Notes under the pieces: model-generated
What the model was told of the DNA's origin: nothing
Database searches by the model: none
The model's input: the letters and a program-made list of their open reading frames with translations, nothing else
Position numbers and translations under genes: made by a program
Shown: positions 5,100 to 16,522 of the stretch, piece after piece
How the letters are laid out: every line of letters starts with the position of its first letter
Position numbering within the stretch: the stretch's first letter is position 1
IMG/VR virus record: IMGVR_UViG_3300033571_002405
Span: 1 to 30,792 of that record
DNA length: 30,792 bases
Direction: 5' to 3' (one strand)
Origin: a virus

Positions 5100-5855
5100 T
5101 TAAACTAATTCCACATCGTAGAACCTGTAGGCTTCCTTTGGACTGAAAACAAAGTTCCTTACATTCTCTACAGCCTTTTCAAACTTCAATCGCCCACCTT
5201 CCAGAGTACGCTCTGATGCCTGAAATATCTTGGGCGTGTATGGATAGCTAGTATCCTGTGCCACCCAGTAATACTCATCCGTGCCAGCCAACTGCGTATA
5301 GATATACGCTTGGATGTCGTAACCGAAAGAGTATATGTCACGCTTGAACCCAGAGATAGCACGTGTAGACTTGGAGTCAGACACGTAGCCAGTTCCCTTG
5401 CAATCCAAGAAACCACGTACAGGTGCATCTCCAATGAATCCAGCCAACTCAACTTGGTACTGACCCTTTAGGTATGCCTCTACGATACCGGATTCCTCAA
5501 GTCTGTTGATCATCTCAATAGCCTTGCTGTAGTCCTCCATTCCAACGAGTGTATTGCTAGTAGATGCTAGCTCTGTCTTCCACTCCTTGTAAGCCTTGGT
5601 GGCACGTGGTGATGCGCCTCCAATCTTTGCGACAATCTCAGAGTCATCCATCACCGTAAAGCTGTTCTCAAACTGCTCTGGAGTAAACAGGAGCGTGTCG
5701 TACAGCCTACCGAACGTGAGTGCATCTGAATCTTTATGAAGTTTACCCTGAACATACAACTCGAACAGACGAACGTCCTGTGTTGCGTACTTCAGAGAGG
5801 TGTAGGTAAGGTAGTCCTTACCCGTAACCTCCTGTAGTTTTAGTGCAAACTCCAT
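5100..5855 (-). CDS. PD-(D/E)XK exonuclease (RecE/YqaJ/DUF3799-like)
   Basis: A 251-residue nuclease. FGRLYDTLLFTPEQF (about 49-63) is the N-terminal signature of phage exonuclease VIII-like proteins. The PD-(D/E)XK core is visible as VELAGF (Glu 136), VRGFLDC (Asp 151), DSK (160-162) and the helix GYDIQAYIY with the Q-x3-Y signature (182-186). Such enzymes resect double-strand ends to leave 3' tails. The start overlaps the stop of the ERF annealing protein by 1 nt, so the pair forms a standard exonuclease/annealase recombination module used for replication, end repair or anti-restriction repair. Identity as a nuclease is strong; subfamily is less certain. Confidence 0.85.
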   Translation of the reverse strand: MEFALKLQEVTGKDYLTYTSLKYATQDVRLFELYVQGKLHKDSDALTFGRLYDTLLFTPEQFENSFTVMDDSEIVAKIGGASPRATKAYKEWKTELASTSNTLVGMEDYSKAIEMINRLEESGIVEAYLKGQYQVELAGFIGDAPVRGFLDCKGTGYVSDSKSTRAISGFKRDIYSFGYDIQAYIYTQLAGTDEYYWVAQDTSYPYTPKIFQASERTLEGGRLKFEKAVENVRNFVFSPKEAYRFYDVELV

Positions 5856-6460
5856 TACTTTACAAACTTCTTCAGGGCGTTAACTTGTGCCTCGGAAAAT
5901 CCTGAACCATACTTTGCGATGATGGCATCGTAAGCCTTGGTCTTGTCGGAAGCGTTCTTCAGGAAGTCAATCGCCTGCTGAAACGTATCCTGTGCAGGTG
6001 CAGAAGTAACAGCCTTTGTAGTCTGTACATCCTTGCCGTGCGTATTTGTGGAGTCAGCGTCCTTGGTATCGTCAATCAAGAACATACCATTCAGGGCGTA
6101 CTTCCGAGCATAGGAGGATGAAGCACCGAAGCATTGAGCGATGTCCATACCCTTACGATTTGGATCGATTCCAGCCTGTGCGCCTACAGTTACCGAATCT
6201 GTACCATCCGTGAGATAGACGTTAGCATCTACATACACGATACCACAAACTTCCTCAATGCTATCCGAGATAGTCATAGACAAGCCATACTTCTTAAGAA
6301 GTGGTTTGACAGCCTCAAGGATGTCTTCTGCATTGCGGTAAGCGTACTTACCGAAGCTGTTGTACTGGCTCTTGGGAGCCTTTAACTCGCTCTGAATAGC
6401 GATCACTTTGTCGTTAAACGACTGAGCATCAGGTTGTGATGCGGGCTTTGTTGTAGCCAT
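5855..6460 (-). CDS. erf: ERF-family single-strand annealing protein
   Basis: A 201-residue protein with the ERF domain over residues 15-140. Hallmarks are FGKYAYRNAEDILEAVKPLL with KKYGL, followed by QCFGASSSYARKYALNGMF and the acidic LIDDTKDAD. ERF proteins form rings on single-stranded DNA and anneal complementary strands, here paired with the nuclease encoded directly downstream. A linker follows, then a small C-terminal helical segment (about 165-201), perhaps a partner-binding tail. The gene has its own well-formed promoter (6584-6614) and a ~115-nt structured leader. Confidence 0.9.
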   Translation of the reverse strand: MATTKPASQPDAQSFNDKVIAIQSELKAPKSQYNSFGKYAYRNAEDILEAVKPLLKKYGLSMTISDSIEEVCGIVYVDANVYLTDGTDSVTVGAQAGIDPNRKGMDIAQCFGASSSYARKYALNGMFLIDDTKDADSTNTHGKDVQTTKAVTSAPAQDTFQQAIDFLKNASDKTKAYDAIIAKYGSGFSEAQVNALKKFVK

Positions 6461-13764: not shown

Positions 13765-13944
13765 TTAGAAATTATTTTCAACGTGCTGAATTAGAGCGGT
13801 CTTGGTGCGGAAGTACAGCGTTGTGCTGTTGGTCTTTAGTTCCTCGTTGTCAAGTAGCGCCCAAGATTTCAGGTAACGGGCAGGCCAAAAGGCGTGAACA
13901 GCGTAGAAGGTCTTGCCGTTGTGGGTGATGGTGTGTGCTTTCAT
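13765..13944 (-). CDS. Small hypothetical protein (59 aa)
   Basis: MKAHTITHNGKTFYAVHAFW, then PARYLKSWALLDNEELK and a short C-terminal helix. It is the gene immediately downstream of the last hammerhead ribozyme. Predicted self-cleavage at 13965/13964 would give it a 20-nt leader (5' end UUAACC, then an A-run). No family recognised. Confidence 0.6.
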   Translation of the reverse strand: MKAHTITHNGKTFYAVHAFWPARYLKSWALLDNEELKTNSTTLYFRTKTALIQHVENNF

Positions 13945-13958
13945 TCTTTAACTTTTTT

Positions 13959-14010
13959 GGTTAAGACCTGCCGGAGCAGGTTTCGGATATTGAACCCTCG
14001 TCAGTTAACC
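13959..14010 (-). ncRNA. Type I hammerhead ribozyme, copy 1
   Basis: Minus strand, 52 nt. Stem I GGTTAA/TTAACC closes the motif. The core CTGACGA fits CUGANGA; stem II GGGT/ATCC has a 5-nt loop; GAAA follows; stem III is CCTGC/GCAGG with a TCCG tetraloop; then the cleavage triplet GTC. Every invariant core base is present. The open helix is stem I, so this is type I. Cleavage is expected between 13965 and 13964. The TAA stop of the 57-aa gene lies within stem I (14007-14005). Confidence 0.93.
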
Positions 14011-14178
14011 TTTTAGCATTTCGTCCCTAATTTGCTCAAGTGCCCAAAGTTTATAGCGCCATAGCACTTCAGGACTGAATTTATCGGATGGGTAAGGGCT
14101 GTCCTGCAGGTTTGTTATCTCACGGATAACCGCTTCCTTCTTTGCTTCGTATTCCATTTTTTCTTTGTAGGTTTCCAT
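14005..14178 (-). CDS. Small hypothetical protein (57 aa)
   Basis: A charged helical protein: METYKEKMEYEAKKEAVIRE at the start, then SDKFSPEVLWRYKLWALEQI, ending MLKG. It lies between ribozyme copies 2 and 1: predicted cleavage upstream gives it a 28-nt leader, and its stop overlaps the next ribozyme. The ending Lys-Gly-stop is shared by all three ribozyme-linked genes because the shared GGTTAA stem supplies the last codons. No family recognised. Confidence 0.7.
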   Translation of the reverse strand: METYKEKMEYEAKKEAVIREITNLQDSPYPSDKFSPEVLWRYKLWALEQIRDEMLKG

Positions 14179-14200
14179 TTTGATAGTTTTTTTTAGTTTT

Positions 14201-14250
14201 GGTTAAGACCCCCGAAGGGGTTTCGGGTAATAAACCCTCGTCAGTTAACC
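14201..14250 (-). ncRNA. Type I hammerhead ribozyme, copy 2
   Basis: Minus strand, 50 nt. Stem I GGTTAA/TTAACC; core CTGACGA; stem II GGGT/ACCC with a 5-nt loop; GAAA; stem III CCCC/GGGG with a TTCG tetraloop; cleavage triplet GTC. Relative to copy 1, stem III has changed on both sides while keeping pairing. Cleavage is expected between 14207 and 14206. The TAA stop of the 85-aa gene lies in stem I (14247-14245). Confidence 0.94.
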
Positions 14251-14502
14251 TTTTTTACCCAAGAAAGCAAGTTGTGGAATGTCAGTAAAGTCATAACTAT
14301 CATATCCGATAAGTTCAGCAATTACATCATCCGTTACATCTCGCTCATTGTTGAAAATCCTACCATTAAAAACTACTGGCTTTCTTTGTTCGTTAAAATA
14401 AGAAACGCAATAGTTTCTTTGGGTTGCAATAATGCAATCTCCTTTAACTGAATAACCCGTTGAGGTTCTCAAGTCCATCGGTCTAAATGATGAATGTGCC
14501 AT
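14245..14502 (-). CDS. Hypothetical protein (85 aa)
   Basis: MAHSSFRPMDLRTSTGYSVK, then strands (DCIIATQRNYCVSYFNEQRK, PVVFNGRIFNN) and an acidic end reaching LAFLGKKG. It is flanked by ribozyme copies 3 and 2. Predicted cleavage at 14532/14531 leaves a 29-nt leader with CAGAAAAA before the ATG. The beta-rich layout, with Cys/Tyr-rich strands, matches no family I know. Confidence 0.65.
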   Translation of the reverse strand: MAHSSFRPMDLRTSTGYSVKGDCIIATQRNYCVSYFNEQRKPVVFNGRIFNNERDVTDDVIAELIGYDSYDFTDIPQLAFLGKKG

Positions 14503-14525
14503 TTTTTCTGAATTTTAGTGTTTTT

Positions 14526-14577
14526 GGTTAAGACGGGCTTTCGCCCGTTTCGTCCAATTAGGACTCATCAGTTAACC
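14526..14577 (-). ncRNA. Type I hammerhead ribozyme, copy 3 (canonical core)
   Basis: Minus strand, 52 nt. Stem I GGTTAA/TTAACC; core CTGATGA; stem II GTCC/GGAC with a 5-nt loop; GAAA; stem III CGGGC/GCCCG with a GAAA tetraloop; cleavage triplet GTC. The core matches the textbook hammerhead exactly. Stem II differs from copies 1 and 2 on both strands yet still pairs. Cleavage is expected between 14532 and 14531. The TAA stop of the 87-aa gene lies in stem I (14574-14572). Confidence 0.96.
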
Positions 14578-14835
14578 TTTGGTGAACTTTTCAACAGCCT
14601 GCTCAATCTTCCAAGCGGAACGCCAAGCGGTTCGGACTCCTGCGCCTTGTGAACGTCCTGTGTTTTGTGAGTAACGCTCGGTGAACAGCGTGTAATCTAC
14701 TGCATCACGGAACCAGTACCAAACGTACTTGTTTTTCCATTCGATGCCGCCATACTGCACACCGAACTCATCGGTCATCAGTCCAAAGTTCATTCCCTTT
14801 GCGGTGGCGTAGTTCTGAAGGTCTTGAATTTTCAT
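14572..14835 (-). CDS. Hypothetical protein, first gene of the early operon (87 aa)
   Basis: MKIQDLQNYATAKGMNFGLM, then aromatic-rich sequence (WKNKYVWYWFRDAVDYTLF) and RTAWRSAWKIEQAVEKF, ending TKG. An in-frame ATG at 14877 lies only 3 nt from the -7 promoter box, upstream of or at the expected transcription start, so ATG 14835 (after ACTAAAACAAAACACGCT) is the more credible start; the longer form would be 101 aa. Ribozyme copy 3 begins in its last codons. No family recognised. Confidence 0.65.
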   Translation of the reverse strand: MKIQDLQNYATAKGMNFGLMTDEFGVQYGGIEWKNKYVWYWFRDAVDYTLFTERYSQNTGRSQGAGVRTAWRSAWKIEQAVEKFTKG

Positions 14836-14879
14836 AGCGTGTTTTGTTTTAGTGGGTTTGTTGTTGTTATTTGACATTG

Positions 14880-14911
14880 CAAATGTAGTGTTGTGGAAAT
14901 CAAACTTCCAA
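14880..14911 (-). promoter_or_regulatory. Main leftward early promoter
   Basis: On the minus strand TTTGG (TTG at 14911-14909) is followed after 21 nt by TACATTTG (14887-14880), an exact Bacteroidota-type match. It is the first promoter left of the divergent gap. Transcription would begin near 14874 and enter the 87-aa gene and the three-ribozyme block. Confidence 0.7.
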
Positions 14912-15101
14912 ATTTGATATGAAATTTAGAATCATTCTAAATAATACTTCCTCATTTTCAGCAAGTTAGGGTTTCCTCGCACGCACGCATACACGCATAG
15001 CGCACCCGCTGTCCCGTATAGAAATTAGGGCAGGCGTAGCATACTGATTGCAAGTTAATAGCAGGGCGATAACGGGGGTAGTGTTAGGTGCTGTGAACGC
15101 A

Positions 15102-15778: not shown

Positions 15779-16522
15779 ATGGAACTCTATCACATCAACC
15801 ACCCACAACTGGAGAACAGATTCGTAATCAACGGGAACAAGACAGAAGTTTACTGCTATAGGGATAGGGCTGGTCTTCTTATATCACCAAGAAAGGTGCC
15901 AGCTGATGGTAAGTCTATGACTATTACCTACAATAAGAAGAGGGTAACTTTCAATATGAGTAAACTAGAGGTAGACTATAGTAATAAATTTGACTACGGA
16001 AAGGTTGACGGACACTTTGACAAGATGCCACATTGCGATTGGTATGCTGTACAGCAATGGCTAAAAGAGAATGACGCAATGCAGCTTCCTTTCCCTTTTA
16101 ACAGGTACGCTGTATCCAAGAAAGGTGTCGTGTACAAAATACTTACTAAGTACGGGTTGTTGCAACCAAAGAGTCTGTTGAGTAGTAAGAACTTGGAAGG
16201 ATATCACCAAGTTGCCTTAAGCGGAACTGGTAATGTCCGTAAATATGTACTTTTACATAGACTTGTCGCATACACATTCCTGGGTCTGGAGTGGAACTCT
16301 AAGCTTGATGTAGATCATATCGATATGAATAAAGACAACAACAGCCTAGAGAACGTTAGAGCCTGTACACGTACTGAGAACCTAAAGTACTTCCGAGAGC
16401 GTGTAGTTAAGTCTTACTTCAAGAACGCTAGAGACATTTCAAAGACTGCAAGAGCTATGAATATGACAAAGCACAAGGTCATTGAAAGCCTTAAGTACGA
16501 AGGGGTGCTTCCTCGCTCATAG
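15779..16522 (+). CDS. HNH homing-type endonuclease with NUMOD4-like domain
   Basis: A 247-residue protein. FNRYAVSKKGVVYKI (about 107-121) fits the NUMOD4 DNA-binding motif. The HNH_3-type nuclease follows: LLHRLVAYTFLG (His160), LDVDHIDMNKDNNSLENVR (Asp179-His180, Asn187). The last 40 residues (DISKTARAMNMTKHKVIESL) look like a helix-turn-helix. The N-terminal ~100 residues are unrecognised and unusual for the family. It cuts DNA at a specific site; such genes are common free-standing mobile endonucleases in phages. It is the first gene of the right arm and has its own -7 box. Confidence 0.88.
   Translation: MELYHINHPQLENRFVINGNKTEVYCYRDRAGLLISPRKVPADGKSMTITYNKKRVTFNMSKLEVDYSNKFDYGKVDGHFDKMPHCDWYAVQQWLKENDAMQLPFPFNRYAVSKKGVVYKILTKYGLLQPKSLLSSKNLEGYHQVALSGTGNVRKYVLLHRLVAYTFLGLEWNSKLDVDHIDMNKDNNSLENVRACTRTENLKYFRERVVKSYFKNARDISKTARAMNMTKHKVIESLKYEGVLPRS

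Follow-up and report, generated by a model that had tools for sequence, protein, structure and literature searches.

The DNA analyzed here (the window) is a virus record from IMG/VR, 30,792 bases long, and its terminase is ~39-47% identical to those of Bacteroidota phages, such as the Flavobacterium elemo phages and Maribacter phage Panino. At the head of a leftward gene run lie four small genes with three hammerhead ribozymes (HH1, HH2, and HH3) between them. The run also encodes Erf, an exonuclease, an SSB-like protein, ThyX, and a primase/helicase. The features of the locus are listed below.

14880-14912, minus strand: putative Bacteroidota-type promoter, TTTG-N21-TACATTTG, assigned by inspection and alignment.
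14572-14877, minus strand: first leftward gene, a 101-aa ORF from ATG 14877, with its stop codon UAA inside stem I of HH1.
14526-14577, minus strand: HH1, hammerhead type I; stem I 14572-14577/14526-14531, core CUGAUGA 14565-14571, stem-loop II 14552-14564, GAA 14549-14551, stem III 14533-14548, C17 14532, predicted cut between 14532 and 14531.
14245-14502, minus strand: orphan ORF of 85 aa between HH1 and HH2, stop codon UAA in stem I of HH2.
14201-14250, minus strand: HH2, hammerhead type I; stem I GGUUAA 14245-14250/14201-14206, stem-loop II 14225-14237, stem III 14208-14221 (UUCG loop), predicted cut between 14207 and 14206.
14005-14178, minus strand: orphan ORF of 57 aa between HH2 and HH3, stop codon UAA in stem I of HH3.
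13959-14010, minus strand: HH3, hammerhead type I; stem I 14005-14010/13959-13964, stem-loop II 13985-13997, stem III 13966-13981, predicted cut between 13965 and 13964.
13765-13944, minus strand: ORF of 59 aa downstream of HH3.
5855-6460, minus strand: Erf-like ssDNA annealing protein (phrog_155, E 3e-42).

The initial annotation had placed three minus-strand type I hammerheads at 14526-14577, 14201-14250, and 13959-14010, following three successive small genes that open a leftward operon. All three were present at these coordinates, the cut positions that it gave matched our prediction, and the location was supported by the promoter motif and by the co-directional genes that continue leftward. 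The promoter contains a -7-like box at 14880-14887, and in the alignment the box and leader were kept in L268, a related locus. The true start of the first leftward gene is more likely ATG 14835 (87 aa) than ATG 14877, because the latter lies only ~3 nt past the -7-like box and the L268 protein starts with MKIQ. The window's genes at the hammerheads received no function from Pfam or PHROGs, and the 85-aa protein had no relative in viral_contigs, Pfam, or PHROGs. Further left, the Erf-like protein is a candidate recombinase for exchange between short repeats. An HNH endonuclease gene (15779-16522, plus strand) lies early in the divergent rightward set. Between 27577 and 30258, minus-strand ORFs carry a recurring peptide, roughly VIVKxGYVPxxxxPVPAVxxTVWSGA, which points to a long gene with repeats that may lie on the plus strand and continue beyond the end of the record.

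The identity of HH1-HH3 as type I hammerheads was strongly supported. The elements are 50-52 nt long and share one plan: CUGAUGA or CUGACGA is followed by stem II (4 bp, 5-nt loop), GAAA, stem III, and the GUC. The core CUGANGA, the GAA, and the A15.1-U16.1 pair required of type I hammerheads were found in each element, as was an NUH cleavage triplet (GUC in all three), and the helices stand in the right order, stem I being open and stems II and III each capped by a loop. Stem I is the same 6-bp helix, GGUUAA/UUAACC, in each. When both strands of the window were searched with a structural descriptor for type I, HH1-HH3 were recovered with no further match, whereas 200 dinucleotide-shuffled whole windows gave 1 match altogether. 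A plain sequence pattern was rejected as evidence, as its 5 window matches against 2.6 expected were not significant; since this loose pattern alone did no better than chance, it is the pairing that carries the evidence. The minimum free energy folds of HH1 and HH3 were the hammerhead structure, and that of HH2 departed slightly near the core and stem III. In all three, stem I consists of the helix alone and lacks the internal loop that in fast type I hammerheads serves as a dock for loop II, which makes the speed of cleavage uncertain. The conserved A on each flank of stem I, together with a UNANU loop II, may stand in for the loop I-loop II contact.

To place the three elements among their relatives, IMG/VR was searched with two DNA patterns, which matched at least 120 stretches each, and 18 stretches were matched in GTDB genomes, about half of them from Bacteroidota. 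The resulting set held at least 293 non-redundant hammerheads from viral contigs and genomes. Because the search patterns fix parts of the core, conservation was tested only at pattern-free positions. When the search was anchored on the left half, CTGANGAGNNNTNANTNNNCGAAAC, alone, stems III and I completed the hammerhead in 118 of the 123 distinct matches listed. Among these 118, U16.1 was invariant, N17 was C (112) or A (6) to the exclusion of G and U, and 117 had a stem I of exactly 6 bp. This result points to selection for cleavage. Across the 293 relatives listed, stem I was 6 bp in 275 and was flanked by A on the 5' side in 280 and on the 3' side in 262, and loop II was mostly UNANU. Compensatory change was also evident: both sides had changed in 12 of 15 pairs, spanning all three helices, and the covariation score was 0.693 compared with 0.158 for shuffles and at most 0.084 for slid controls; the paired percentage itself was fixed by construction, since pairing was the criterion for choosing rows. 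L143 and L159 include hammerheads in which stem III carries a long, pyrimidine-rich loop, for example CTTTCTTCCCCCGAGAAAG, and these recur within an array.

A structure-first scan, in which pairing and a match to 8 or more of the 11 core letters were required, found the full core in 261 of 265 elements among the matches listed, a count that is only partly independent because many of the elements had been fetched with core-fixing patterns. Three of the exceptions were U4C. The remaining one, on contig L096, has the core UUGAUAA (C3U+G8A), and the same contig also has a consensus hammerhead. In the main text of Perreault et al. 2011 (PMC3088659), C3U+G8A is described as a natural covariation of the core pair, and the L096 element offers a natural test case for it.

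The initial annotation had proposed a search with the Rfam type I model, and this recovered the array only in part. HH1 matched Hammerhead_1 (RF00163, Rfam 15) over the full model length at 30.2 bits (E 2e-5 in a 751-base search), which is under the gathering score of 34 bits, a database cut-off rather than a mechanistic feature. HH2 and HH3 were not reported even at E<=10, and at gathering scores Rfam 15 found nothing in the window. Nor did any array in 20 related loci attain the cut-off, several scoring 25-30 bits. We therefore built a covariance model, R1, from 35 relatives, with HH2 in the seed and HH1 and HH3 outside it. R1 scored HH1 at 65.0, HH2 at 76.2, and HH3 at 61.9 bits, and the next window match reached 10.9 bits. 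The subfamily thus shares the fold, the core, and the open stem I of RF00163 but scores 25-30 bits against a cut-off of 34, so that no array tested gets annotated, indicating that phage ribozymes are undercounted by present annotation.

The elements are placed in a uniform way with respect to the neighboring genes. In the window, the stop codon UAA of the upstream gene lies within stem I in all three cases, and the start codons of the 85-, 57-, and 59-aa ORFs follow the cuts of HH1, HH2, and HH3 at 29, 28, and 20 nt, respectively. Among the relatives listed, the upstream stop codon was inside stem I (-3) in 64, in the core (+1) in 51, and touching stem I (-8, -9) in 72, and the next start codon was most often 19-30 nt past the cut, with a peak at 19-28 nt, although in compact phage genomes stop and start codons may abut any intergenic element. 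Gaps with a hammerhead were longer than those without one in the same regions (median, 71 nt versus 15 nt). Hammerheads on opposite strands of one locus were absent among the 293 relatives listed. Instead, co-directional tandem arrays were found, with up to nine elements: in whole records, G002 has nine in 4.3 kb, G001 seven in 5 kb, and G008 seven in 4.6 kb. A 5.8-kb contig in a MAG labelled Aliivibrio sp. (L233) contains eight R1 hammerheads and genes up to 100% identical to those of G002, and was likely binned into the MAG from a phage.

We consider it probable, at roughly 80%, that these are active type I hammerheads that cut the early transcript and insulate each gene with standard ends. 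The argument that the elements cut is drawn from the conserved catalytic nucleotides. The further claim of the initial annotation, that one early transcript is cut into single-gene RNAs, is well supported as an interpretation, because the cleavage nucleotides are conserved and the same geometry recurs in hundreds of relatives. During leftward early transcription, each hammerhead would fold and cut 3' of its GUC, and the first three genes would be freed as separate mRNAs, severed from the rest of the operon. The upstream RNA would end in stems II and III with a 2',3'-cyclic phosphate, whereas the downstream RNA would carry its 5'-OH on a short, A-rich leader of 29, 28, or 20 nt before the start codon. 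Bacteroidota initiate translation mostly without Shine-Dalgarno pairing, and such an A-rich leader would be a plausible initiation region in these hosts. The ribozyme would thereby act as an insulator, standardizing the 3' end and the 5' leader of every gene regardless of its neighbor, and this would allow genes to be gained, lost, or swapped between ribozymes. A ribosome terminating inside stem I would delay folding until its departure, and cutting might therefore be tied to translation. We infer cleavage in the cell, together with its effects on mRNA stability, translation, and gene exchange, from these features of the DNA.

Gene turnover between conserved ribozymes was evident when the window was compared with L267 and L268, its closest relatives among the matches listed. 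The first leftward gene encodes a 92% identical protein, and the 59-aa ORF after HH3 is 98% identical and in L268 too stands behind a hammerhead. Between these two genes, however, L267 and L268 have four hammerheads and four genes unlike those for the window's 85-aa and 57-aa proteins. The stems of HH1 are those of the second L268 hammerhead, HH3 resembles the fourth, and near HH2 the DNA similarity between the window and L268 stops around the start codon. Judged from this alignment, the genes between the hammerheads have been wholly replaced relative to L268, with the ribozymes and leaders retained. In L010 and L015, the gene order around two conserved hammerheads differs although the genes are the same. 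Among the hammerhead sites compared, 131 pairs had a homologous neighbor on one side or both; both neighbors were kept in 26 of these, and one had changed in 105. Isolation of each gene by a ribozyme fits such turnover, and the replacement, like the elements themselves, their conserved core, pairing, and cleavage nucleotides, and the stop and start geometry, can be read directly in the sequences compared.

The same turnover could be explained differently, with the hammerheads being mainly DNA recombination seams or small mobile repeats, in which self-cleavage is a relic or limits harm. Copies of 50-75 nt would be spread between genes, and an Erf-type annealing protein would swap the genes. The ribozymes and leaders common to the window and L268 around unrelated genes are as expected from such seams, as are the arrays whose copies are alike in all stems where the upstream gene ends are unlike, and an Erf gene does lie further left in the same direction. 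A mere repeat, however, would not keep U16.1, H17, the core, and the pairing through compensatory changes. Moreover, the junctions at hammerheads were not clearly more labile than others. Synteny was kept at 23% of hammerhead junctions versus 30% of other junctions in the same regions, a comparison based on small overlapping samples and a crude gene caller. Because other junctions were nearly as unstable, we make no claim for a special hammerhead role in gene exchange, and we regard recombination seams as an unlikely main function.

The likeness of the copies within an array also bears on the idea that successive hammerheads excise single-gene RNAs whose ends are then rejoined, giving circular or spliced RNAs, a possibility already raised in the main text of Perreault et al. 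(PMC3088659). An identical stem I would let the fragment ends re-pair, and all three window elements do have GGUUAA/UUAACC; end-to-end pairing was possible for 22 of 43 neighboring elements compared with 4.6% between contigs. Matching stems I were nevertheless discarded as evidence for circular RNA, as stems II and III were shared to a similar degree; the likeness extending to these stems fits duplication within a phage, which therefore explains the matching stems I. In about half of the neighbors (e.g., L001 and L008) the stems I are unable to pair, and the main text of PMC3088659 reports that no such products were found, so that religation appears highly improbable. We give least credence to uncleaved structural RNAs, such as 3'-end stabilizers or translation attenuators: stable stem-loops II and III do follow straight after the stop codon, but U16.1, C/A17, and an intact catalytic core would be needless in such RNAs, and a terminator-like U tract is absent.

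The proposed cleavage and insulation at this locus lead to a broader and more tentative proposal, somewhat less probable than not in our estimate: in many lytic phages, part of the early region may consist of ribozyme-insulated cassettes, whose genes can be exchanged without retuning expression. In such a cassette, a hammerhead would open at the stop codon of the ORF, and the start codon of the ORF would lie a set distance past the previous cut. If true, this would answer what phage hammerheads are for, and the arrays would represent a widespread natural equivalent of synthetic ribozyme insulators. In the RiboJ-type insulators of synthetic biology, a hammerhead is placed ahead of a gene so that its 5' leader is standard. 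These are engineered, with one per gene after the promoter, whereas the elements described here are natural, intercistronic, and in series.

The initial annotation had suggested that tandem intercistronic hammerheads could be undescribed. This suggestion fails, because clusters that flank phage genes had been reported by Perreault et al. 2011 (PMC3088659), who also demonstrated cleavage and proposed that the transcripts are processed into single-gene mRNAs. According to the main text of that study, prophage hammerheads are clustered around single genes or short blocks, the examples including an A. tumefaciens triple array around ardA, C. scindens, and A. caulinodans, and three tandem arrangements cleaved in vitro and one triple in E. 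coli. At least two hammerheads flanking the genes of a phage region are likewise found in the window, and the present arrangement is a widespread form of the clustering first described in 2011. The examples of Perreault et al. are in prophage regions and of types I, II, or III, whereas all elements here are type I with a 6-bp stem I. A text search of the main text of PMC3088659 found no mention of a stop codon in stem I, and neither a constant spacing to the following start codon nor arrays as long as seven to nine elements were seen in it. The main text also covers HHphage of the haloviruses HF1/HF2, a hammerhead that precedes the start codon of the early helicase gene by 13 nt. HHphage resembles the present elements in lying shortly before an early gene start in a lytic phage, but it is a single element, has a 2-nt core insertion, and is salt-tuned. 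Theta ribozymes, from gut phages apparently infecting Bacteroidota and Bacillota, are also self-cleaving phage ribozymes proposed to process phage RNA, but they have an HDV-like fold, lie beside tRNA genes, and are proposed to act on tRNA 3' ends (PMC10879173).

Relative to the open-access literature, what is new here is a compact subfamily invisible to Rfam, its prevalence in phages including cultured ones, the stop and start spacing, and the gene replacement. The biological role of prokaryotic hammerheads is regarded as an open question in a review (PMC6155905) and likewise in PMC10085705, and a uniform anatomy across hundreds of phages bears on it.

Hammerheads of this kind were found in cultured phages, namely the elemo phages (Flavobacterium sp. 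BAL314), pelagiphages including Eistla (HTCC1062), and OLIVR1 (Agrobacterium); no report of hammerheads in elemo phages or pelagiphages was found in the open-access literature. Since these carriers are cultured and the anatomy is uniform, the processing idea is testable in infected cells. Eistla has two tandem hammerheads (L273:1244-1308 and 2498-2567) with a common stem I, GUAACA. In its independent annotation, each opens at an annotated stop, with TAA in stem I, and the next annotated genes start 42 and 33 nt past the cuts. OLIVR1 has one hammerhead, 26 nt ahead of an annotated gene. The elemo phages have one, in the operon leading to Erf, and near-identical elemo phages differ by two compensatory swaps in stem II (GACU/AGUC versus GGUU/AACC). 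BLAST had indicated presence or absence of the ribozyme among elemo isolates, which alignment and model search contradicted: the two examined isolates without a BLAST match do contain this ribozyme, in which stem II differs by a compensatory change. In elemoA, the hypothetical gene gp68 (L259:4276-4383; NC_055852.1 17275-17382) is annotated antisense over the hammerhead and is probably spurious as a gene.
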